33,681 nucleotides of DNA from Deltaproteobacteria bacterium (lineage in GTDB: Bacteria > Myxococcota_A > UBA9042 > PHBI01): the NCBI GenBank assembly GCA_006226565.1, contig SBGO01000730.1:1-33681 (forward strand), in the 5' to 3' direction. The notes below the pieces were generated by a model. The model was given only the letters and a program-made list of their open reading frames with translations, did not search any database and was not told the DNA's origin. How positions within the stretch are numbered: position 1 is the stretch's first letter; each line of letters starts with the position of its first letter. This document shows, one piece after another, positions 12,002-33,681 of this stretch. The position numbers and the translations under genes are program-made.

Positions 12002-12517
12002 TCAGAAGCCGACGCCGAGGGAGAAGGTGAGCTGTGACTCGAGGGCCCGCTTCGCGAGCGGCTCGTCCTCGGCCCACAGCGGCTTGGTCCACGCGGCGCG
12101 CAGCTTGACCGGCCCGAGCGCGGCGCGGATCGCCAGCTCGCCGTTGACGGTGATGACGCTGTCGGCGAGGCCGTGGCGCTCGGGGAGGAGCTTCACGACC
12201 CCGAGGGCGAGGCCGAGCTCGGGCGTGATCGGCCCCGGCAGCGGGAGGTCCACCGAGAGGCCGGCCTGGCCGCCGGCGAAGTCCATCGGCGCCGCGGGAT
12301 CGGGGGCGCTGAGGTAGGCGTCGAGCTCGACCGCGAAGGACAGGAGCGACTCGATGCCGTAGGTCAGCCGGAGCCCGCCGACGGTCGCCGTGTCGCCGCT
12401 CGAGAAGCGCGGCCCGACGCCGGCGTAGAGCGCGGTCCCGCCGGCGTGGGCCTCGGTGGGGGCGAGAGAGAGCGCGACGAGCGCGGCGGCGATGGGGGCG
12501 AGGATCCGGGAGCGCAT
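12002..12517 (-). CDS. Putative small outer-membrane beta-barrel protein
   Basis: ATG at 12517 gives signal peptide MRSRILAPIAAALVALSLAPTEAHA; alternating hydrophobic strands; C-terminal aromatic SLGVGF. Confidence 0.65.
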   Translation of the reverse strand: MRSRILAPIAAALVALSLAPTEAHAGGTALYAGVGPRFSSGDTATVGGLRLTYGIESLLSFAVELDAYLSAPDPAAPMDFAGGQAGLSVDLPLPGPITPELGLALGVVKLLPERHGLADSVITVNGELAIRAALGPVKLRAAWTKPLWAEDEPLAKRALESQLTFSLGVGF

Positions 12518-12801
12518 GACGCGTCCTCCGCACGAGCGATGAGGTCCTGGCGCCACGACGCCGGCGCTCCGATGATATTCACCTCCCGGTGAGCGCGTCC
12601 CCTCCCATGTGCGGCCGCGATCTCCCGAAGCCGGGGTGGGAGGCCCTCCGGCGGCGGCCCCGCGCGGCGCGGGCCCGCCGAAAACGAGGCCGAGATACCG
12701 CTGGGTGTTGCACCGCGGCCGCCTTCACCGCAGGATCCTCCCGGGTGGGTCCGCGGCGCGGCCGGGGACCGCCGATCGCAGCGAACGACAAGGCCCCGGA
12801 C

Positions 12802-15800
12802 TTGAACCCACGCTCCCTCACGCGCACCGTCCTCACCTCGATCGCGGCCCTGGCCCTGGTCGGGGCCGACGCCGCGGGGGCGCGGGCGGCCTTCGGCCCG
12901 GACAGCGCAGACGCCTTCGGGGCGGCCACCGGGGCGCCGACCTCGGGCGCGCGCTGGGTCGATCTCGAGGGCGACGGCGACCTCGACCTGGTCCTCGACA
13001 CCGAGGCCGCCACGGTGACGCGCCTGGCCGTGGGCGGGACCCTCGTGGCCGCGGGCGAGCTGGCCGCCACGGCGGCGCCCGTCGGCGTCGCGCTCGCGGA
13101 CTACGACGCCGACGGGCGCGTCGACCTCGCGCGCGCCCTCCCCGGTCGGATCGAGCTGTACCGCAACGCCGGCGGCACGACGCCGTTCGCCGGTACGCCG
13201 ACGCTGCTCATCCGCAGCGGGGCCTGCGGCGCCCCGGGCGACCCGCCGAACGGCCGCTGCACGGCGATCGCGGGCTTCTCCCCGACGGGCCTGGCGTGGG
13301 TCGACGTGAACGCCGACGGCTGGCTCGACCTCCTCGTCTCCGACGGCGGGGCGCCACGCGTCTTCGTGAACCCCGCGGACCCGGGCGGCGGCACGTCGTT
13401 CCCCGCCAGCGTGGCCGCCTTCCCCGCGAGCACGGCGACCGCGGGCGGCGCCGTCGCGGCCGCCGACTGGGACCTCGACGGCGACGTGGACGTGGTCCTC
13501 CCCGCCACCGCCGCCCCCGACGTGTGGCTGGCCGGCACCCTCCCCTTCGTCCCCGTGGCCGCCCCCAACTTCGCCGTGGCCGCGCCGCGCGCTCGCTCGC
13601 TCCTCTGCGACCTCGACGGAGACGGTCGCCTCGATCTCTTCCGCGCCGGCGCGGGCCTCGACGAGACCGTCGCCGGCGAGACGCCGGGGCGCGTCTTCTG
13701 GGGCAGCGCCTCGGGCGCGTTCCTCCCCATCACCAGCGGCGACCCGGAGCCCGGTCTCTCCCCGGCCGAGCCGGCCCTCGCCGCCGCCTGTGGCGACGTC
13801 GACCGCGACGGCGACCTCGATCTCGTCGTGGTCGGCGCCTGGGGCGTGCGCGTCTATCTCGGTCAGCGCGAAGACGGCTCGCCCCGACACTTCGAGGAGG
13901 ACCTCACGACCGGGCTCCCCGCGGGGCTGGTCGACGTCCGCGACGTCTCCCTCGTCGACGTCGACGGGGACGGGGACCTCGACCTCGATCTCGCGACCGG
14001 CTCGGGCCACCGCCTCTTCCTGAACACGCCCACGGGCAGCGGCGGCCACCTCACCGTCGAGGTCGTGGTCCCGGTCGGGGCCTGCACGCCGTCCGACACC
14101 ACCGGCGTGCGCGCCGACATCGGCGCGGTCGTGCTGCTCCGGCGGCCCGACGGCGGCGTGGCGGCGACCGCGGAGGTGACCGGCGGCAGCGGCTCGGCGA
14201 GCTCGTGGCGCCTCGACCTCCCCCTCGGGGACGGCGACCCGGACGCGACCTGGGAGCTGACCGTCCTCCCGCACGGCCGCGGCGTCGTGCCCCTCGCCGA
14301 GGCGCAGTACGTCCTCCCGGTCGTTCCGTCGGCGATCGACGGGATCCTGCGCGTCGGGCTCGGCGACGCCGACGGCGACGGCATCCCGGACGCGGACGAG
14401 CTCCTCGACGCCGACGCGATCCCGCTCGACCGCTACCCCGACCCCGACGACGTGGACGCGGACGGCATCCCGAACCGCCTCGACCGCGACAGCGACGGCG
14501 ACGGCATCGAGGACGCCGTCGAGGCCGGCGACGCGACCCGCTGTACCCCCGCGGCGGACGCGGACGCCGACGGCGTCCCGGACTATCTGACGCCGCCCGA
14601 CTCGGACGACGACGGGCTCGACGACATCGTCGAGGGGCTCCGGGGGACCGATCCGGGCTCGCCCGACACCGACGGCGACGGGCTCGACGACGGGGACGAG
14701 GTCGCGCTCGGGACCGATCCCCGGGACGCCGACACGGACGACGACGGGCTCCGCGACGGCGACGAGGTCGCGGGCACCGGTCCCCTCGCCGCCTACGGGC
14801 CGACCGATCCCAAGGCGCCCGACAGCGACGGCGACGAGATCAACGACGGCGTCGAGGTCGGCGTATACACGCCCGTTCCCGGCAACCCCACCGCCCCCTA
14901 CGGCTACCTCGGGACCGACGTCGACGGGCTCACCTGGCGGCCCGACCTCGAGCCCTCGACGAAGACCGATCCGACCTCCGCCGACACCGACGGCGGTGGC
15001 ATCCCCGACGGCGTCGAGGACAAGAACCACAACGGCCGCGTCGACTTCCTCGAGAAGGACCCCAACCACCGCTCCGACGACGACAGCGACGGTGACGGCC
15101 TCCTCGACATCAACGAGCTGGCGCTCGGCAGCGATCGCTTCGAGGTCGACACCGACGGAGACGGCATCGAAGACGGCGACGAGGTGGCCGCGGGCAACCC
15201 CGCGACCTTCGACCCCGGGCTCGACACCGACCCGGCCGACGCGGACAGCGACGACGACGGCCTCTCCGACGGCGACGAGCGCGACGGCACGGGCCCGCTC
15301 TCGGCGTGGGACCCGACCGATCCGCGCGACCCCGACAGCGACCACGACGGGCTCCCCGACGGCCTCGAGGTCGGTGTCGAGTACCCGGTCTTCGGCGGCA
15401 TGAGCCCCACCGAGGGCCTGACCTTCGTCGGCACGGACACCAGCGCGGCGAGCTGGCGACCCGACGCGGATCCGGCGAGCATGACCGACCCCAACGTCGC
15501 CGACACCGACGGCGACGACCTCTCCGACGGGGTGGAGGACGCCGACCGCGACGGGAAGGTCACCGTCACGATCGGCGGGACCGGCACCAGCGGCAGCGGC
15601 GAGACCGATCCGAACGTCGCCGACACCGACGGCGACGACCTCTCCGATGGCGACGAGGTCGCGCGCGGCACCGACCCGCGCGACACCGACAGCGACGACG
15701 GCGGCGTCCCCGACGGGACCGAGGTCGCCTCCCTCCTCGACCCGACCGACGGCAGCGACGACGCGTACGTCGCCGACACCGACGGGGACGGCCTCGCCAG

Positions 15801-18800
15801 CGCGCGGGAGATCGAGCTCGGCACCGACCCGTCGGTGCGCGACACCGACGGCGACGGCATCGACGACGGCGACGAGCTCGCCGCCGGCGCCCCCGGCGTG
15901 CTCGACCCCGGCCTCGACACCGATCCCGTGGACGCGGACAGCGACGACGACGGCCTCCCCGACGGCGTCGAGCGCTTCGGCACCGGCCCCCTGGCGGCCT
16001 ACGCGCCGACCGACCCGCTCGCCTGGGACAGCGACGCCGACGGGCTGCCCGACGGTCTCGAGGTGAGCGTGACCGCGCCGGTTCCCGGCGGAACGAGCGC
16101 CGGCGGGCGGAGCTTCGCCGGGACGAACACCGCCGCCGGCCACTTCAAGGCGGACGCCGATCCGGCGGGACAGACCGACCCGAACGACGACGACACCGAC
16201 GACGACGGGCTCGTCGACGGCGACGAGGACGAGGACCGCAACGGCGCGGGCAGCGGCTTCTTCGGGGCCACCGGCACCGTCGGCTTCGGCGAGACCGACC
16301 CCGCCGACCCCGACACCGACGGGGACGGCCTGCAGGACGGGACCGAGCTGGGCGTCACCGTCCCCGGCGGGACCGGCACGGACCTGGCGGTCTTCGTCCC
16401 CGACGCCGACCCCTCGCGCACGACCGGGCCGAAGGACGTCGACAGCGACGACGGCGGCATGCACGACGGCGCCGAGGACACCAACCTCAACGGGCGCGTC
16501 GACGCCGGCGAGCACAACCCGCTCTTCCCCGACGACGACGATCGGGACGAGGACGGGCTCACCGACGCCGAGGAGGCGGCGGTCGGCACCGACCCGCGGG
16601 TGACGGACACCGACGGCGACGGGCTGTCGGACGGCGCGGAGCTGGCCCTCGGCGACCGCACCGTGCGGGACGCGGGCGACACCGATCCGCTCGACGCGGA
16701 CACCGACGACGACGGGCTCCCCGACGGGACCGAGCGGCATGGCAGCGGGCCCCTCGAGCGCTTCGGCGCGACCGATCCCAACCGCGCCGACAGCGATGGG
16801 GACGGGCTCTGGGACGGGCTCGAGGTGGGCCTCGTGGCCGGCGTGCCCGGGGGCGCGACCCCCGCCGGCGTCGCCTGGACCGGGACCGACTTCGCGGCGG
16901 GCTTCGTCGCCGACGCCGACCCGACCAGCCGCACCGACCCCACCACGAAGGACACCGACCACGACGGGCTCGACGACGGCGACGAGGATCTCGACCACGA
17001 CGGCGCCGCGGTCTACGTCATCGGCGGCACCGGGACGGCCGGGTCGGGCGAGACCGACCCGACCCGCGCCGACACCGACGGCGACTTCCTCTCCGACGGC
17101 GCCGAGGGGCCCTTCGACACCGATCCGCTCGACGTCGACAGCGACGACGGCGGCGTGGAGGACGGGGTGGAGGTCGCCAACGGGCTCGATCCGCGCCAGC
17201 CCGCCGACGACGCCGGCCTCGCGGACCGCGACGGCGACCGCCTCTCCGACGCGCGCGAGGCGTTCCTCGGCCTCGACCCCGACGACGCTGACAGCGACGG
17301 CGACGGGCTCGACGACTTCGCCGAGCTCGCCGGCGGCATCCCCGGCGTCGCCAACGCGGGCGTGGACACCGACCCGCTCGACGCGGACAGCGACGACGAC
17401 GGGATCTCCGACGGCGACGAGCGCGCCGGGACCGGCCCGCTCGAGGGCTTCGGCCCGACGCACCCCCTCGAGGTCGACAGCGATCTCGACGGCCTCGTCG
17501 ACGGCGTCGAGGTCGGCGTGGTCGAGGCGATCCCCGGCGGCGTCAGCGAGGGGCCGACCGCAGTGGTCTTCGCGGGCACCGACGGCTTCGTCGGCGACGC
17601 CGACCCCGACAGCACCACCCACCCGATGCGCGCCGACAGCGACGGCGACGGGCTCGGTGACGGCGACGAGGATCTCGACCACGACGGCGCGACGAGCTTC
17701 ACGCTCGGCGGGACCGGGACGAGCGGCAGCGGCGAGACCGACCCGAACGTCGCCGACACCGACGGGGACCGGCTCTCCGACGGCGCCGAGCGCCTCGCCC
17801 GCGGGACCGATCCCCTCGACACGGACAGCGACGACGGCGGCCTCGCCGACGGGATCGAGGTCGCCAACCGCCTCGATCCCCTCGACCCCGCGGACGACAA
17901 CCGCTTCCACGACACCGACGGGGACGGCCTCGCGGACTACCGCGAGATCCTCGCCGACCTCGACTGGCGGGCCGCGGACACCGACGGCGACGGGCTGTCG
18001 GACTTCGACGAGCTGGCCCGTGGGGTGCTCGGGCGCTACGACGAGGGCGTCGACAGCGACCCGCGCGACGCCGACAGCGACGACGACGGCCTCGGCGACG
18101 GCGACGAGGTGGCCGGCTACGGCCCGTGGCCGCCCACCGACCCGCTGTCTGCGGACACGGATCTGGACCTGCTCCCGGACGGGATCGAGGTCGGCGTGAC
18201 CGAGGGCGTCCCGGCCGGCGTGAGCCCCGGCCTCGGCCTCCCCTTCGAGGGGACCGGCGCCGGCTTCGTCGGCGACGCCGATCCCACGACCACGACCGAT
18301 CCGACCCGCCCCGACAGCGACGGTGACGGGCTCCTCGACGGGGTCGAGGACGCGGACCACGACGGCGCGCAGGTCGCGACCCTGGGCGGCATCGGGACCG
18401 TCGGCAGCGGCGAGACCGACCCCGCCGCGGCCGACAGCGACGGCGACACGCTCTCCGACGGCGTCGAGGTCGCCCTCGGGACCAACCCGCTCGACAGCGA
18501 CAGCGACGACGGCGCCGTGGACGACGGCGTCGAGGTCGGGCGCGGGACCGATCCCCTCGATCCCTCCGACGACGCCCCGCCCGACACGGACGAGGATGGG
18601 CTCCTCGACTGGGTCGAGGGCGTGCTCGGGCTCGATCCCGCGCGGCCAGACAGCGACGACGACGGCCTCCCGGACGGCGAGGACGACCTCGATGGCGACG
18701 GCATCGCCACCCGGCTCGAGACCCTCGGCGGGACCCAGCCCCTCGACAGCGACGGCGACGGCACGCCCGACGCCCTCGACACCGACAGCGACGACGACGG

Positions 18801-20502
18801 GCTCGAGGACTGGGCCGAGGGCGTCGTCGACGTCGACGCCGACGGCGTCGGCGCCTGGCAAGACGACGACGATGACGGGGACGGCATCCCCACCTGGCGC
18901 GAGCTCGATCTGCCGCGGGCGGACGGCGCCGTCGCGGACGGGGCGCGCTTCGGTCGAGATGTCGACCACGACGGGATCCCCAACTACCTCGATCGCGACA
19001 GCGACGGGGACGGGGCGGCCGACGGCCCGGCGGGGGTCGGCGAGAACGACACCGACGCGGACCTGGACGGCATCCCCAACTACCTCGACCGGGACGATGG
19101 CGACGGGCCCCAGGGCGACCCCGACGGGGACGGCCTCGCGAACGCCGACGAGCTGCGGATCGGCGCCAATCCGCTGGCCGCGGACAGCGACGGGGACGGG
19201 CTCGGCGACGCCGAGGAGATCGGCGCGGTCGGCGAGCCGACCGACACGGACGACGACGAGCTGCCCGATATCATCGACGCGGACGACGACGGCGACGGGA
19301 TCCCGACCGCGCAGGAGCGGGCCGACGCGCTGCGCGAGATGGCCGTTCAGGACGACGACGGGGTCCCGCCCTGGCTCGACCGCGACAGCGACGGGGACGG
19401 CGTCGAGGACGGCGTCGAGGGGACGCGGGATCCCGACGACGACGGCGCGCCGAGCTACCTCGACCACGACGCCGACAACGACGGCACCTCGGACGCCGAA
19501 GAGGGGGCCGGAGACGCCGACGAGGACGGCGTCATCAACCTGCTCGACCCCGAGGACGCCGACGGCCCCGGGGCGGACCCGGACCACGACGGCCTGACGA
19601 GCGGCGAGGAGGCGGCCCTCGGGACCCTCGCCTACACCTCGGACACCGATGGCGACGGCGTGGTCGACGGTGAGGAGGCGGGCGACGGCCTCGCCGCGCC
19701 GCGGGACAGCGACGGGGACGGGGTCCCGGACGCGCTCGACCCCGACGACGACGGCGACGGGATCCCGTCGGTGGTGGAAGGGAGCGGCGACCCCGACGAC
19801 GACGGCGTGCCGAACCGGCTCGACGCAGACTCCGACGGCGACGGCGTGGCGGACCGCCTCGAGGGGCTCGACGACGGCGACGAGGACGGCGTCCCCGCGT
19901 ACCTCGACGACGACGCCGACGGCGACGGCGTGGCGGACCGGGACGAGGGGCCGGGCGACGCGGACCTCGATGGGCTCGCGAACGTGCTCGACCCCGACGA
20001 CGGCGACGGACCGGCGGCGGACTACGACCTCGACGACCTGACCAACCTCGAGGAGCACGTCATCGGCTCGGACCCGCGCCTCGACGACATGGACCGCGAC
20101 GGCGTGCGCGACGGCGAGGAGGTCGGCGAGGCGTGGAACCCGTGGGACACCGACGCCGACGGCGCCCCGGACTGGCGCGACGCCGACGATGACGACGACG
20201 GCCTCCCGACGTCGACCGAGGTGCTCGACGCCGAGACCTTCGGGACCGACGTGGACCACGACGGCCTGGCCAACTGGCGCGACGCCGACGCCGACGGCGA
20301 CGGCAAGCCCGACCGCGTCGAGGGCCGCGGAGACGCCGACGGGGACGGGATCCCGAACTACCTCGACGACAACGACGACAGCGACATCGGCGTCCGGCTC
20401 GCCGGGGGGCGCGGCTGCGCGGGCGGTGGCGGCGCGGCGCCGTGGTGGGCGCTGATGCTCGCCTTCGGGTGGCTCGCGGTCCGCGTGCGGCGGCGGGCCT
20501 GA
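12802..20502 (+). CDS. Giant FG-GAP/VCBS + thrombospondin type 3-like repeat surface protein with MYXO-CTERM-like anchor
   Basis: ~2566 aa. N-terminal signal-like LNPRSLTRTVLTSIAALALVGADAAGARA (TTG 12802; GTG 12589 and ATG 12607 are alternative starts); ~7 FG-GAP-like DxDGDGDLDL units; ASPIC/UnbV-like segment; dozens of DxDGDGLxDxxE calcium-binding motifs; C-terminus GCAGGGGAAPWWALMLAFGWLAVRVRRRA. Confidence 0.88.
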   Translation: MNPRSLTRTVLTSIAALALVGADAAGARAAFGPDSADAFGAATGAPTSGARWVDLEGDGDLDLVLDTEAATVTRLAVGGTLVAAGELAATAAPVGVALADYDADGRVDLARALPGRIELYRNAGGTTPFAGTPTLLIRSGACGAPGDPPNGRCTAIAGFSPTGLAWVDVNADGWLDLLVSDGGAPRVFVNPADPGGGTSFPASVAAFPASTATAGGAVAAADWDLDGDVDVVLPATAAPDVWLAGTLPFVPVAAPNFAVAAPRARSLLCDLDGDGRLDLFRAGAGLDETVAGETPGRVFWGSASGAFLPITSGDPEPGLSPAEPALAAACGDVDRDGDLDLVVVGAWGVRVYLGQREDGSPRHFEEDLTTGLPAGLVDVRDVSLVDVDGDGDLDLDLATGSGHRLFLNTPTGSGGHLTVEVVVPVGACTPSDTTGVRADIGAVVLLRRPDGGVAATAEVTGGSGSASSWRLDLPLGDGDPDATWELTVLPHGRGVVPLAEAQYVLPVVPSAIDGILRVGLGDADGDGIPDADELLDADAIPLDRYPDPDDVDADGIPNRLDRDSDGDGIEDAVEAGDATRCTPAADADADGVPDYLTPPDSDDDGLDDIVEGLRGTDPGSPDTDGDGLDDGDEVALGTDPRDADTDDDGLRDGDEVAGTGPLAAYGPTDPKAPDSDGDEINDGVEVGVYTPVPGNPTAPYGYLGTDVDGLTWRPDLEPSTKTDPTSADTDGGGIPDGVEDKNHNGRVDFLEKDPNHRSDDDSDGDGLLDINELALGSDRFEVDTDGDGIEDGDEVAAGNPATFDPGLDTDPADADSDDDGLSDGDERDGTGPLSAWDPTDPRDPDSDHDGLPDGLEVGVEYPVFGGMSPTEGLTFVGTDTSAASWRPDADPASMTDPNVADTDGDDLSDGVEDADRDGKVTVTIGGTGTSGSGETDPNVADTDGDDLSDGDEVARGTDPRDTDSDDGGVPDGTEVASLLDPTDGSDDAYVADTDGDGLASAREIELGTDPSVRDTDGDGIDDGDELAAGAPGVLDPGLDTDPVDADSDDDGLPDGVERFGTGPLAAYAPTDPLAWDSDADGLPDGLEVSVTAPVPGGTSAGGRSFAGTNTAAGHFKADADPAGQTDPNDDDTDDDGLVDGDEDEDRNGAGSGFFGATGTVGFGETDPADPDTDGDGLQDGTELGVTVPGGTGTDLAVFVPDADPSRTTGPKDVDSDDGGMHDGAEDTNLNGRVDAGEHNPLFPDDDDRDEDGLTDAEEAAVGTDPRVTDTDGDGLSDGAELALGDRTVRDAGDTDPLDADTDDDGLPDGTERHGSGPLERFGATDPNRADSDGDGLWDGLEVGLVAGVPGGATPAGVAWTGTDFAAGFVADADPTSRTDPTTKDTDHDGLDDGDEDLDHDGAAVYVIGGTGTAGSGETDPTRADTDGDFLSDGAEGPFDTDPLDVDSDDGGVEDGVEVANGLDPRQPADDAGLADRDGDRLSDAREAFLGLDPDDADSDGDGLDDFAELAGGIPGVANAGVDTDPLDADSDDDGISDGDERAGTGPLEGFGPTHPLEVDSDLDGLVDGVEVGVVEAIPGGVSEGPTAVVFAGTDGFVGDADPDSTTHPMRADSDGDGLGDGDEDLDHDGATSFTLGGTGTSGSGETDPNVADTDGDRLSDGAERLARGTDPLDTDSDDGGLADGIEVANRLDPLDPADDNRFHDTDGDGLADYREILADLDWRAADTDGDGLSDFDELARGVLGRYDEGVDSDPRDADSDDDGLGDGDEVAGYGPWPPTDPLSADTDLDLLPDGIEVGVTEGVPAGVSPGLGLPFEGTGAGFVGDADPTTTTDPTRPDSDGDGLLDGVEDADHDGAQVATLGGIGTVGSGETDPAAADSDGDTLSDGVEVALGTNPLDSDSDDGAVDDGVEVGRGTDPLDPSDDAPPDTDEDGLLDWVEGVLGLDPARPDSDDDGLPDGEDDLDGDGIATRLETLGGTQPLDSDGDGTPDALDTDSDDDGLEDWAEGVVDVDADGVGAWQDDDDDGDGIPTWRELDLPRADGAVADGARFGRDVDHDGIPNYLDRDSDGDGAADGPAGVGENDTDADLDGIPNYLDRDDGDGPQGDPDGDGLANADELRIGANPLAADSDGDGLGDAEEIGAVGEPTDTDDDELPDIIDADDDGDGIPTAQERADALREMAVQDDDGVPPWLDRDSDGDGVEDGVEGTRDPDDDGAPSYLDHDADNDGTSDAEEGAGDADEDGVINLLDPEDADGPGADPDHDGLTSGEEAALGTLAYTSDTDGDGVVDGEEAGDGLAAPRDSDGDGVPDALDPDDDGDGIPSVVEGSGDPDDDGVPNRLDADSDGDGVADRLEGLDDGDEDGVPAYLDDDADGDGVADRDEGPGDADLDGLANVLDPDDGDGPAADYDLDDLTNLEEHVIGSDPRLDDMDRDGVRDGEEVGEAWNPWDTDADGAPDWRDADDDDDGLPTSTEVLDAETFGTDVDHDGLANWRDADADGDGKPDRVEGRGDADGDGIPNYLDDNDDSDIGVRLAGGRGCAGGGGAAPWWALMLAFGWLAVRVRRRA
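14773..18590 (+). repeat. Higher-order tandem super-repeats (~687-693 bp, ~229-231 aa) inside the giant TSP3 gene
   Basis: In-frame G[TSY]GP[LW] anchors at 14773, 15286, 15979, 16741, 17428, 18115 (spacings 513, 693, 762, 687, 687), each followed by TDP...DSD.DGLPDGLEVGV...PGG and a GGTGT.GSGETDP block. Confidence 0.8.
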
Positions 20503-20572: not shown

Positions 20573-21697
20573 CTATCGCGGCAGGATCATCTCCTCGGGG
20601 AGGAGGCGATGCTTGTCGACCTCGGGGAAGAGGTCGTCGAGGTACTCGGCCAGGCGCTCGTTGGTGGGGCCGTAGCCGGAGCTGTAGAGGAGCACCTCGA
20701 GGTCGCGGACGATGTCCTTGGCGCGCTGGTAGCGCTGGTTCGGGTCGCGCTCGAGCATCCGGCGCATGACCACCTCGATCTTGGGCGAGATGCCCGGGTT
20801 CCAGTCCCGCGGGGACGGCACCTGGCGGCTGTCGTGCAGGTGGATGGCGTCGTCGATGGACTCGACGGGGTAGACCTGCTCGCCGGTCAGGAGCTCGAAG
20901 AGCACGAGCCCCAGCGAGAACACGTCGCTGCGGGCGTCGATGGTCTGGCCGCGCGCCTGCTCGGGGGCGAGGTACGGCGCCTTGCCCATGACCTCGTTCT
21001 CGCGCGCGGTCTTGCGGGCGCTCATCGCCTTCGCGATGCCGAAGTCGGCGAGCTTCACCACGCCGCCCCAGCTCGCGTAGATGTTCACCGGCGAGACGTC
21101 GCGGTGGACGAGGAAGAGCGGGCGCCCATCGACGCCGCGCTTCTCGTGGGCGTAGGCGAGCGCGCGCGCGACCCGGCTCACGATGAAGACGGCGAGCTCG
21201 GGCGGCAGGTAGTCGTTCCGCTCGTCGAGGCGCGTGTTGATGTCCTCGAGGGTCACCCCGTGGACCCACTCCATGATGATGGCCAGGGAGCCGGCCATGT
21301 CGACGAGCTGGTAGACCTGCTGGATGTTCTCGTGGATGAGGCTCGCGACCAGCTTCGCCTCGTCGATGAACATGTCGCGGTAGTAGAAGCGGTCGAGGAG
21401 CTCGCGCCGGATGGTCTTGATGCCGACCGTCTTCGAGAAGCCGCTGACGCCGAGCTGCTCCGCGAGGAACACCTGGCCCATGCCGCCTTCGGCGACCTTG
21501 CTGATGATCCGGTAGGTGCTGACGTACTGGAATACGTCGAGGTCCACGGCGAGCTTCCGATCCGAGGCGTGTGGCAGGGCTTCCGCTGGGCCCCCCGCGG
21601 GGGCGCCGAGCGGCCGCGTCTCCCATAGGTTATTAGAGGTCGCGCGCGCGTTCTGCAAGCGGCCCGGACCGCCCGGTGAGCCCGGTGTATTCTGCAT
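20573..21697 (-). CDS. Serine/threonine protein kinase (Hanks-type, no evident TM)
   Basis: VAEGGMGQVFLAE glycine loop, VGIKTIRRE, HRDVSPVNI catalytic loop, DFGIAKA, APEQARGQTIDARSDVFSLGLVLFELLTGE. ATG at 21697 shares its A with the amidase TGA (TGATG). Confidence 0.93.
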   Translation of the reverse strand: MQNTPGSPGGPGRLQNARATSNNLWETRPLGAPAGGPAEALPHASDRKLAVDLDVFQYVSTYRIISKVAEGGMGQVFLAEQLGVSGFSKTVGIKTIRRELLDRFYYRDMFIDEAKLVASLIHENIQQVYQLVDMAGSLAIIMEWVHGVTLEDINTRLDERNDYLPPELAVFIVSRVARALAYAHEKRGVDGRPLFLVHRDVSPVNIYASWGGVVKLADFGIAKAMSARKTARENEVMGKAPYLAPEQARGQTIDARSDVFSLGLVLFELLTGEQVYPVESIDDAIHLHDSRQVPSPRDWNPGISPKIEVVMRRMLERDPNQRYQRAKDIVRDLEVLLYSSGYGPTNERLAEYLDDLFPEVDKHRLLPEEMILPR

Positions 21698-23190
21698 CAG
21701 CGCGCGGGGTTTGGTTGCCGATCGTGCCACGAATGCGCCGCCTCCAGCTGGGAGGCGAGGCGGAGGAGCGTTGCTTCGTCACCAAAACGCCCGACCCACT
21801 GCGTGCCGATGGGGAGCCCTTCCGCGTTCCAGCTCAGGGGCAGCGAGATGGCCGGTTGGCCGGTCATGTTGAAGAGCATCGTGTTCGGGGTGGCCGCCAG
21901 CGCGGTCTCGGCGAGCTCGTCGAGGGCCTTGAGGAGCAGGCGACGCGACGGGAGGGTGCGCAGGACGCCGATCTGGAGCTTCTCCTTGGCGCTGAGCGCG
22001 AACTCGCCGATGGGGACCGGCGGGCGCGCCGTCGTCGGCGTCAGGAGCACGTCGTAGCGCTCGAAGAAGCGCCCGATCACGCGGCCGGCCGCCTGGACGG
22101 TCTGGCGGGCCGCGGCGTGCTCGGTCGCGGTCAGCTTGTCGGCGATGAGCTTGAGGACCCAGGTCGCCGGCTCGAAGTCGCTCGCGCGCGGGCGGCTGCC
22201 CGCGACGTCGCCGGCCGCGCGGACCCCCAAACCCACCCCGGCCGAAACGAGGGTCAGGTAGGCGCGGACGAGGGCGGCCTGGTCGTAGTCGAAGAGCGCC
22301 TCCTCGACGTCGTGGCCGAGGTCGCTGGCCATGGTCGCGGCCGCGTCGAGGGCCGCGAGGTTGTCGGGGTGCGTCTCGTTGCCGAAGAGCGCGCGGCGCG
22401 TGAAGGCGATGCGCAGCCGGCCGGGGGGCGCGCCGACCTCGGCGGCGAAGGGCCGCTCGGGGGGATGCACCTGATAGGGGGCGCCCGCGTCGGGTCCGCT
22501 GACGGCGTCGAGCATGACGGCGGTGTCCCGTACCGTGCGCGTCAGGACGTGCTCGCAGACGAGCCCGCCCCAGCGCTCGCCGGCGTCCGGGCCCGAGGGG
22601 TTGCGGGCGCGGGTCGGCTTGAGCCCGACGAGGCCGCAGTGGGAGGCCGGGATGCGGATCGAGCCGCCGCCGTCGCCGCCGTGGGCCACGGGCACCATGC
22701 GCGCGGCGACGGCCGCCCCGGAGCCGCCGCTCGAGCCGCCGGGCGTCCGGTCGGTGTTCCACGGGTTGCGGGTCGGTCCGCGGAGCGCGGGCTCGGTCAC
22801 GCCGTAGATCCCGAACTCGGGGGTGTTCGTGCGCCCGAGGACGAGGAGCCCTGCTCGCCGGAAGCGGCTCACGAGCTCGGCGTCGTGGTCCGCGCGGTAC
22901 GCGAGCCGGAGACGCGTCGACTGCGTGCTCGGCTCGCCGGTGTCCTCGGCGAGGAGGTCCTTCAGCAGCATCGGCACGCCGCGGAAGGGGCCGTCGGGGA
23001 GCGGGCCGACCGACTCCGCGAGGGCGCGGTCGAACTGGGTGTGGACGACCGCGTTGAGGCGCGGGTTGTCGCGCTCGATCCGGGCGATCGCCGCCTCGAC
23101 CAGCTCCTTGGGCGACACGTCGCCGCGGGCGACCAGCTCGGCGAGACCGACCGCGTCGTAGCGATCGTACTCGGGCATCGGCAGGGCCAT
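21697..23190 (-). CDS. Amidase (amidase signature family)
   Basis: MLLKDLL catalytic Lys region, [42 protein letters not shown] signature. Start ATG 23190 has GAGGACGGAG upstream; GTG 23265 overlapping the previous stop is an alternative. Confidence 0.92.
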
Positions 23191-32160: not shown

Positions 32161-32886
32161 TCAGCCGAGGTTCGTCCGGATCTGCGCGGGATCGACCCCG
32201 AGCTGGGCCAGCGTGGCCCGGGTCTCGTCGATCATGATGCCCATCCCAGCCAGGTAGACGACCGTCCGCGGCGTGACGAGATCGGCGAGGTGGCGCTGCA
32301 CGCGCCCCACCCGGCCCTGCCAGCGATCGGTCGGCTCGGGGCGGCTGACCACCAGCCGCACACGCACGCCCGCGGCGCGCCAGGCCGCCTGCTCGTCGGT
32401 GAAGCAGAGCTGATCGGCGAAGCGGACGCCGTGGACCAGCGCCAGCCGCCCGCGGCGCCCCGGCGTCGCGAGCAGCTCCGTGAGCACGCTCCGGAGCGGT
32501 GAGATGCCGGTGCCGGCGCCCACGAGGAGCACGTCGCCGTGGTCGGCGCCGCTCAGATCGAAGCCGCCGCCGAGGGGGCCGTCGAGCTCGATCGGCGTCT
32601 CGGGCTCCGCGGCCATCAGCGCCCGCGCCGGGGAGCCCGCGCCGCCGTCCTTGATCAGGAAGGTCAGCGGTCCCGGCTCGTGGGGGGCCGAGGCGATCGC
32701 GAAGTAGGCGCGCTCACCCCCGGGGAGGCTCAGCGCCGCCACCTGGCCGGGCACGTAGGTCAGGGGCCGCGCGGGTTCGATGCGCACGCGCTGCAGGTCG
32801 CGCCCTTCCGGCCGCGTCGTGACGACGCGGGCCGCGGTGTGGGTCGGTCGCGGGGGCGTGGCGCCAGGCTCGGGTTGGCTCGTCAT
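32161..32886 (-). CDS. FAD/NAD(P)-binding ferredoxin reductase-like oxidoreductase
   Basis: ATG 32886; GERAYFAIASAP FAD motif, VLLVGAGTGISPLRSVLTELL NAD(P) motif, VVYLAGMGIMIDETRATLAQLGVDPAQI. Confidence 0.85.
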   Translation of the reverse strand: MTSQPEPGATPPRPTHTAARVVTTRPEGRDLQRVRIEPARPLTYVPGQVAALSLPGGERAYFAIASAPHEPGPLTFLIKDGGAGSPARALMAAEPETPIELDGPLGGGFDLSGADHGDVLLVGAGTGISPLRSVLTELLATPGRRGRLALVHGVRFADQLCFTDEQAAWRAAGVRVRLVVSRPEPTDRWQGRVGRVQRHLADLVTPRTVVYLAGMGIMIDETRATLAQLGVDPAQIRTNLG

Positions 32887-32924
32887 GCGGCATTTGAAGT
32901 ACACTCGGGCGCGCTTGGCAACGG

Positions 32925-32953
32925 TTGGCGAGAGCGGACCCGGCTGGTACAGT
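32925..32953 (+). promoter_or_regulatory. Candidate promoter for the right-edge repeat protein
   Basis: TTGGCG, 17-nt spacer, TACAGT, ~34 nt before ATG 32987. Confidence 0.4.
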
Positions 32954-32986
32954 CCGCATCCAAAGTCACCAGCAGTGAGGGGCGAC

Positions 32987-33681
32987 ATGTCTAGCAGCGG
33001 TTCCGGTGATGGGAGCGGGGGCGGCCGACGCCCAGCGCCGAGGCGTCCATCCGGCGGTCAGCGTCCGCCGACGCGTCCGGTCGCGGGCCGGCCTTCGCGC
33101 GAGCCCGATCCCGAGCCCGCCGGCGACGAGGACGCGACCCAGGCGTTCAACATCGCCGACTTCGACTTCGACTCGCCCGACTACGTCAACGAGGACGAGT
33201 CGACGGTGTCGGTCGACTCGGCCGCGCTGCGCGCCCGCGCGTCGCGTGCCGCGGCGCCGGCCGCGGACGAGGGCGAGGCGACGGTCGCGATGCAGATCCC
33301 GCAGGATCTCCTCGACGACGGGCCGAAGGCCTCGAGGAACACGATCGTCGGGCACCCGGGCGTCTCGCCGCGCACCGCGGGCGCGGTCCGCGGGGGCGCC
33401 AAGGCGCCGCGTCGGAACGAGACGCTCGCCATGGACGCCCGCAACGTCCGCGCCGCCGCCGCCGCCATGGCCGCCGACGACGACGATGACGGCGAGTCGA
33501 CGCAGGCGATGAACGTCGACGACATGCTCGCGAAGATCGACATGGGGGGGCCGCCGGCGCGCTCGGCGCAGCTCGCCGATGACGACGACGGCGAGTCGAC
33601 CCAGGCGCTGAACGTCGACGACATGCTCGCCCAGATCGACGACCGTCCGCCGGCCCGCCCGGCGCCGGCCCGCTCGGCTCC
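32987..33681 (+). CDS. Partial (3' end off window) Asp/Ala-rich protein with repeated [DEN]-x-T-x-A/V motifs
   Basis: ATG 32987 open to the window edge: MSSSGSGDGSGGGRRPAPRRPSGGQRPPTRPVAGRPSREPDPEPAGDEDATQAFNIADFDFDSPDYVNEDESTVSVDS...DGESTQAMNVDDMLAKID...DGESTQALNVDDMLAQID. Missing from the ORF track because it has no stop in the window. Confidence 0.75.
   Translation, partial: MSSSGSGDGSGGGRRPAPRRPSGGQRPPTRPVAGRPSREPDPEPAGDEDATQAFNIADFDFDSPDYVNEDESTVSVDSAALRARASRAAAPAADEGEATVAMQIPQDLLDDGPKASRNTIVGHPGVSPRTAGAVRGGAKAPRRNETLAMDARNVRAAAAAMAADDDDDGESTQAMNVDDMLAKIDMGGPPARSAQLADDDDGESTQALNVDDMLAQIDDRPPARPAPARSA

Follow-up and report, generated by a model that had tools for sequence, protein, structure and literature searches.

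A tail-anchored array of conserved threonine motifs as a candidate phosphothreonine scaffold for FHA proteins in one bacterial family

What does a protein do that carries one threonine motif after another along a chain without an FHA domain? The question arises at the right edge of the window, meaning here the whole 33,681-nucleotide stretch of DNA that was analyzed, where an earlier note had described an array of at least seven spaced threonine motifs. All seven that it listed are present in a single frame of 231 aa (32987-33681) that is open to its last full codon, which ends at 33679. Given that the window is an entire contig (G000:C192, one of 780 in a 7.7-Mb assembly) and that the frame runs off it, the gene is truncated at the right edge. 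Its GC content by codon position (0.758/0.584/0.913) is as in coding DNA at 73% GC, and AGGGG lies upstream of the ATG. Elsewhere in the window, both strands of 12364-20502 are open over about 2630 codons; of these overlapping frames, at most one is likely to be the gene.

Seven of the nine threonines in the frame fall within the motifs, with codons at 33137, 33203, 33281, 33341, 33422, 33500, and 33599; the two outside are at 33071 and 33374. The strict pattern [DE]xTx[AS](hydrophobic) occurs five times; shuffles that preserve composition average 0.062 occurrences, and none (0/20,000) reaches five. The core of motif 1 reads literally T-Q-A-F. The earlier note grouped all seven motifs as FHA-ligand-like, but SRNTIVGHP and RRNETLAMD fall outside the acidic class and represent another motif, albeit a conserved one. 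The non-acidic forms [NK]T[IL]xGHP and R[NS]xTLA[ML] are found in one copy each in all three orthologues, and may constitute a second type of site with a different reader or kinase. The last two units are indeed 99 bp apart, although they start 3 bp earlier than previously given (33488 and 33587 rather than 33491 and 33590).

Table 1. Positions of the array gene, its motifs, its neighbor, and its candidate continuation
Feature	Position	Strand	Basis or remark
Tail-anchored Thr-motif array protein, 5' part	32987..33681	+	codon-position GC; orthologues in G001 and G002
Basic Pro/Arg/Gly-rich N-terminal segment	32987..33124	+	net charge +6 over residues 1-40
Motif 1, DEDATQAFNIADFDFD	33125..33172	+	near-identical to GEATQAFNIGDFDFD, tail of tolQ-linked FHA protein (C325)
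Motif 2, EDESTVSVD	33191..33217	+	Thr kept in G002
Motif 3, DEGEATVAMQI	33266..33298	+	acidic Thr unit
Motif 4, ASRNTIVGHPG	33329..33361	+	non-acidic class; orthologue consensus [RQ][NK]T[IL]xGHP
Motif 5, RRNETLAMDA	33410..33439	+	non-acidic class, kept in orthologues
Motif 6, DGESTQAMNVDDMLAKID	33488..33541	+	copy 1 of 99-bp repeat
Motif 7, DGESTQALNVDDMLAQID	33587..33640	+	copy 2 of 99-bp repeat
FNR-like NAD-binding oxidoreductase	32161..32988	-	longest frame; true start probably near 32886
Candidate 3' half of the array gene, 198-aa open frame from the C332 edge	L018:1498-2094	-	synteny

A search of relatives recovered two orthologues, one of them complete (308 aa, G002:C90) and the other partial (G001:C93). 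Loss of the motif threonines in orthologues, which the earlier note had named as refuting its reading, is not seen: all five aligned motif threonines are identical between the window protein and the G002 protein, despite an overall identity of 47%. When the frame [DE]-x-X-x-A-phi-x-phi is collected from the ten motif-bearing proteins of the family with X left unnamed, X is threonine in 28 of 29 cases, which are not 28 independent events because the units are partly duplicates of each other, and in no case serine; these ten proteins contain 4.2% threonine and 5.4% serine overall. By this count, threonine is what stays constant in the unit, a conservation that the label "low-complexity" undersells. 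That the array might nevertheless be a functionless, slippage-prone low-complexity repeat of GC-rich DNA is suggested by its acidic Pro/Ala-rich composition, by the 99-bp duplication, by contig ends that lie inside such repeats, and by the restriction of the array scaffold to one family-level lineage. This explanation is largely refuted by the conservation of threonine and must be regarded as highly improbable: threonine stays while flanking residues change, the position of the gene is kept across three genera, and the threonine core persists in the FHA tails of other families. The divergent FNR-like gene adjoins the array gene in G000, G001, and G002 as a conserved neighbor; no functional link is claimed.

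The missing half of the gene could be traced through the orthologue. In G002 the array gene is flanked by the FNR-like gene and by GlpD, with anatomy as in G000, and a search of G000 with the tail of the G002 protein gave a match at the end of another contig, C332. The frame there contains two further units, ENESTMAVDMDAMLAEID and DEKTQAMDISMLDDID, after which come a helical stalk and, at the very end, a hydrophobic helix; the next gene is GlpD-like, matching the order in G002. This frame is most likely the rest of the window gene, and the earlier expectation that the array continues beyond the window is thereby borne out. Since C192 and C332 share no exact sequence overlap, and Pro-Ala-Arg-rich repeats lie at both contig ends, the join rests on synteny. 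Other candidates were set aside: the match at the start of C97 falls in the Gly-rich tail of an RRM-like, RNA-binding protein, and the remaining DNA matches in G000 (C17, C217, C452, C553, and C619) look composition-driven. A tail-domain scan of the named genomes had the G002 contig as its sole match; a match of G332 to the tail profile is a different coiled-coil transmembrane protein.

Both complete C-termini, MLGAIGGGLGILLMVIGLI in the C332 half and FGSLMGGITVVILVLGLIF in the G002 orthologue, form a single hydrophobic helix at the extreme end of the chain, and the N-terminal part has no hydrophobic stretch. Together these features indicate a tail-anchored protein, and by its predicted topology the motif array should face the cytoplasm. 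AlphaFold2 renders residues 1-236 of the G002 orthologue at low confidence and almost structureless, with helices at 237-262, 268-276, and 280-307. The window part and the C332 part combined hold about nine sites, with five strict units in the former and two units in the latter. Neither Pfam nor NCBIfam gives a match, to FHA or otherwise, for the window part of the protein, the C332 part, or the complete orthologue.

If the array has no reader of its own, the same motif elsewhere in the genome may point to one. Unit profiles were searched against 52 genomes of the class and 379 of the phylum, with no matches outside three genomes of one family. Within this family, the carriers are the window array protein; an FHA-TM-TPR protein; an FHA-TadA/T2SSE-like ATPase, whose G002 copy has three units; and a TM-coiled-coil-HhH protein, of which the G001 copy has five units and the G000 copy three that fit more loosely. 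The FHA-TM-TPR gene is divergent from tolQ, tolR, and tolA; it is whole in G002 (C353) and split in G000 between C325 (N-terminus) and C457 (the rest), the loci being L142:6471-9005, L011:2-316, and L065:1-2286. The first units of the two proteins are nearly alike (EDATQAFNIADFDFD in the window protein, GEATQAFNIGDFDFD in the FHA-TM-TPR protein), and an FHA protein with the same tail motif is thus present in the genome as a candidate partner in trans. Two units of the G000 FHA tail have Gly in place of Glu at -2 (GKTAAFSLDD), so that acidity at this position is not absolute. Pattern scans found no motif arrays in the remaining FHA loci of G000.

Several of these proteins deserve description in their own right. 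The G002 ATPase (L062:5684-7714) combines an FHA domain, three DESTQAINLDDIAKID-type units, and the TadA/T2SSE-like ATPase region in one protein. In G000 its counterparts seem to be split over a pair of neighboring genes on C299 (L070), of which the FHA gene lacks units. At L063:1837-3759 and L038:1258-2688, a membrane-anchored coiled-coil protein bears three to five threonine units and a C-terminal helix-hairpin-helix. Separately, the FHA protein at L073:1306-3192, which has a transmembrane segment and ends in a TonB-like part, resembles GltG of the Myxococcus gliding machinery.

The FHA-TM-TPR protein extends well beyond the family, with homologues in 46 of the 52 class genomes and a TolQ-like neighbor at three of those outside the family (L098, L101, and L105). 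The motif [DE]xTx(hydrophobic) occurs, once or more, in 23 of 24 homologous FHA tails outside the family (mean of 3.6 and maximum of 10 in 2000 shuffles), and at the center of the frame threonine is enriched 9.3-fold and serine 1.6-fold. In these tails the downstream part of the unit is gone and the acidic-Thr-hydrophobic core is kept. The FHA domain itself, closest in sequence among solved domains to those of FhaA, GarA, OdhI, and DgcB, is canonical and retains the GRG, SRRH, and NGT positions. Because the scaffold is limited to one family and the FHA protein is class-wide, the latter works without the scaffold elsewhere, and the FHA-TM-TPR protein with its tail motifs may be the more general finding.

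Whether the conserved threonine implies FHA docking has to be weighed against two other readings. The units could be short linear motifs whose binding to a partner needs no phosphorylation; the DDMLAKID segment, for instance, might fold as a short helix against a receptor, with threonine serving for helix capping or direct contact. In favor of this, conservation downstream of the threonine (phi-x-phi-DD...ID) exceeds what FHA recognition needs, and in the AlphaFold2 model of the G002 protein a short helix spans 133-140, directly after a motif threonine. This is unlikely, however, as threonine is never replaced by serine, which caps helices well too, and as it is the downstream part that is lost and the acidic-Thr-hydrophobic core that is kept in the FHA tails of other families. 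FHA domains, for their part, distinguish phosphothreonine from phosphoserine. Alternatively, the sites may be phosphorylated so as to change charge or to compete for kinases, as a sponge or a membrane-release switch, rather than for FHA docking. The many sites, the disordered acidic chain, and the basic N-terminal segment would suit such a role, yet it would tolerate serine and a variable +3 position, where a hydrophobic residue is in fact kept, and the same motif adjoins FHA domains; we give this reading little credence. The FHA-ligand reading, by comparison, is well supported by the pattern of conservation across these proteins. The conserved threonines have acidic flanks and a hydrophobic +3 residue and lie in the predicted disordered region of the array protein. 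PknA-dependent sites of mycobacteria prefer acidic residues upstream and Leu or Val at +3 (PMC7164672), preferences that the array units also fit.

Known systems provide precedents for parts of this arrangement. GarA, OdhI, and DgcB contain FHA domains that bind their own threonine tail (PMC6733907). The actinobacterial regulators GarA and OdhI share the acidic-flanked threonine in a disordered tail, and the FHA domain next to such a tail in the paralogous, tolQ-linked FHA-TPR protein falls in their subgroup; they combine one FHA domain with one or two threonines in cis. The window protein has a tail anchor and about nine sites, and its lack of an FHA domain sets it apart from the GarA type. 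For the Bdellovibrio FHA-GGDEF protein DgcB, a crystal structure shows the bound self-ligand LEK(p)TSIVASD, with Glu at -2 and hydrophobic residues at +2/+3 (PMC6733907). The peptide NSDNLEK(p)TSIVASDT resembles the G001 units EEKTSALSLDD, although DgcB has a single cis motif, no array, and no membrane scaffold. Similar in working principle is MDC1 of vertebrates, a disordered adaptor with several TQXF motifs read in trans by the FHA domains of RNF8 and Pellino proteins (PMC11884936). Several copies of one threonine motif on an FHA-less chain are present here as well, the T-Q-A-F of motif 1 being of the TQXF form, and, if our inference is right, the window protein would work like the TQXF array by analogy and not by descent; MDC1 is nuclear, relies on the ATM kinase, is a BRCT adaptor, and is non-homologous. 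StkP of Streptococcus pneumoniae has a membrane-proximal segment with seven phosphothreonines that has been proposed as a scaffold (PMC12077195), but this juxtamembrane domain is part of the kinase itself and has no repeated motif, and streptococci are without FHA domains. Finally, GltG of Myxococcus gliding (FHA-TM-TonB) is an FHA membrane protein that works together with a TolQR-like motor (PMC3169522). Although reminiscent of it, the tolQ-linked FHA protein scores only 33 bits against the 650-bit NCBIfam cut-off for GltG.

In light of the recurrence of its threonine motif in the tail of the Tol-adjacent FHA protein, the array protein is probably a kinase-controlled docking scaffold. On balance, its sequence favors a tail-anchored, FHA-less, disordered multi-site phosphothreonine scaffold whose likely reader is the tolQ-linked FHA-TM-TPR protein, a reading we hold with reasonable but not high confidence. 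Phosphorylation, binding, choice of reader, and biological output are all inferred. The scaffold would be intrinsically disordered, face the cytoplasm, and be held in the inner membrane by its single C-terminal helix, and its acidic threonine motifs would be sites for Hanks-type Ser/Thr kinases. Phosphorylation would turn the motifs into FHA ligands. Their most likely reader, the FHA-TM-TPR protein divergent from tolQRA, would use its FHA domain to choose between its own tail and the scaffold array, several copies being bound at once. With many sites per scaffold, complexes could build up at the inner membrane in a graded or multivalent way, PP2C phosphatases would reverse the docking, and the output would perhaps be control of the cell envelope through Tol, a link suggested solely by gene order around the presumed reader. 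Candidate writers, readers, and erasers are all encoded in the genome, with 67 kinase, 30 FHA, and 5 PP2C matches. The scaffold and the tolQ-linked FHA gene are not neighbors, and the number of FHA matches weakens the reader assignment. The earlier proposal of a kinase substrate or FHA docking platform is thus supported in its main point by threonine conservation, by the same arrays in FHA tails of the same genomes, and by related motifs class-wide, but not in its choice of kinase: the one at 20573-21730, given earlier as 20573-21697, is one of the 67 matches, lies 11 kb away, and has no motif or neighbor link to the array. A more speculative and rather doubtful extension is an MDC1-like hub, in which the membrane scaffold, the Tol-linked FHA-TPR protein, the FHA-TadA-like ATPase, and the coiled-coil-HhH membrane protein share one FHA-ligand motif, so that kinases would bring them together in multivalent complexes at the inner membrane to control the cell envelope.

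In the bacterial FHA regulators that have been studied best, a single FHA domain is combined in cis with one or two threonines, whereas the sequence here points to an array that would act in trans, multivalent and tethered to the membrane. The shared motif names the likely reader of the array and provides a testable peptide code. To our knowledge, few links from kinase to output are established in kinase-rich bacteria, and in such organisms this array may be a route from Ser/Thr kinases to the Tol-Pal system of the envelope.
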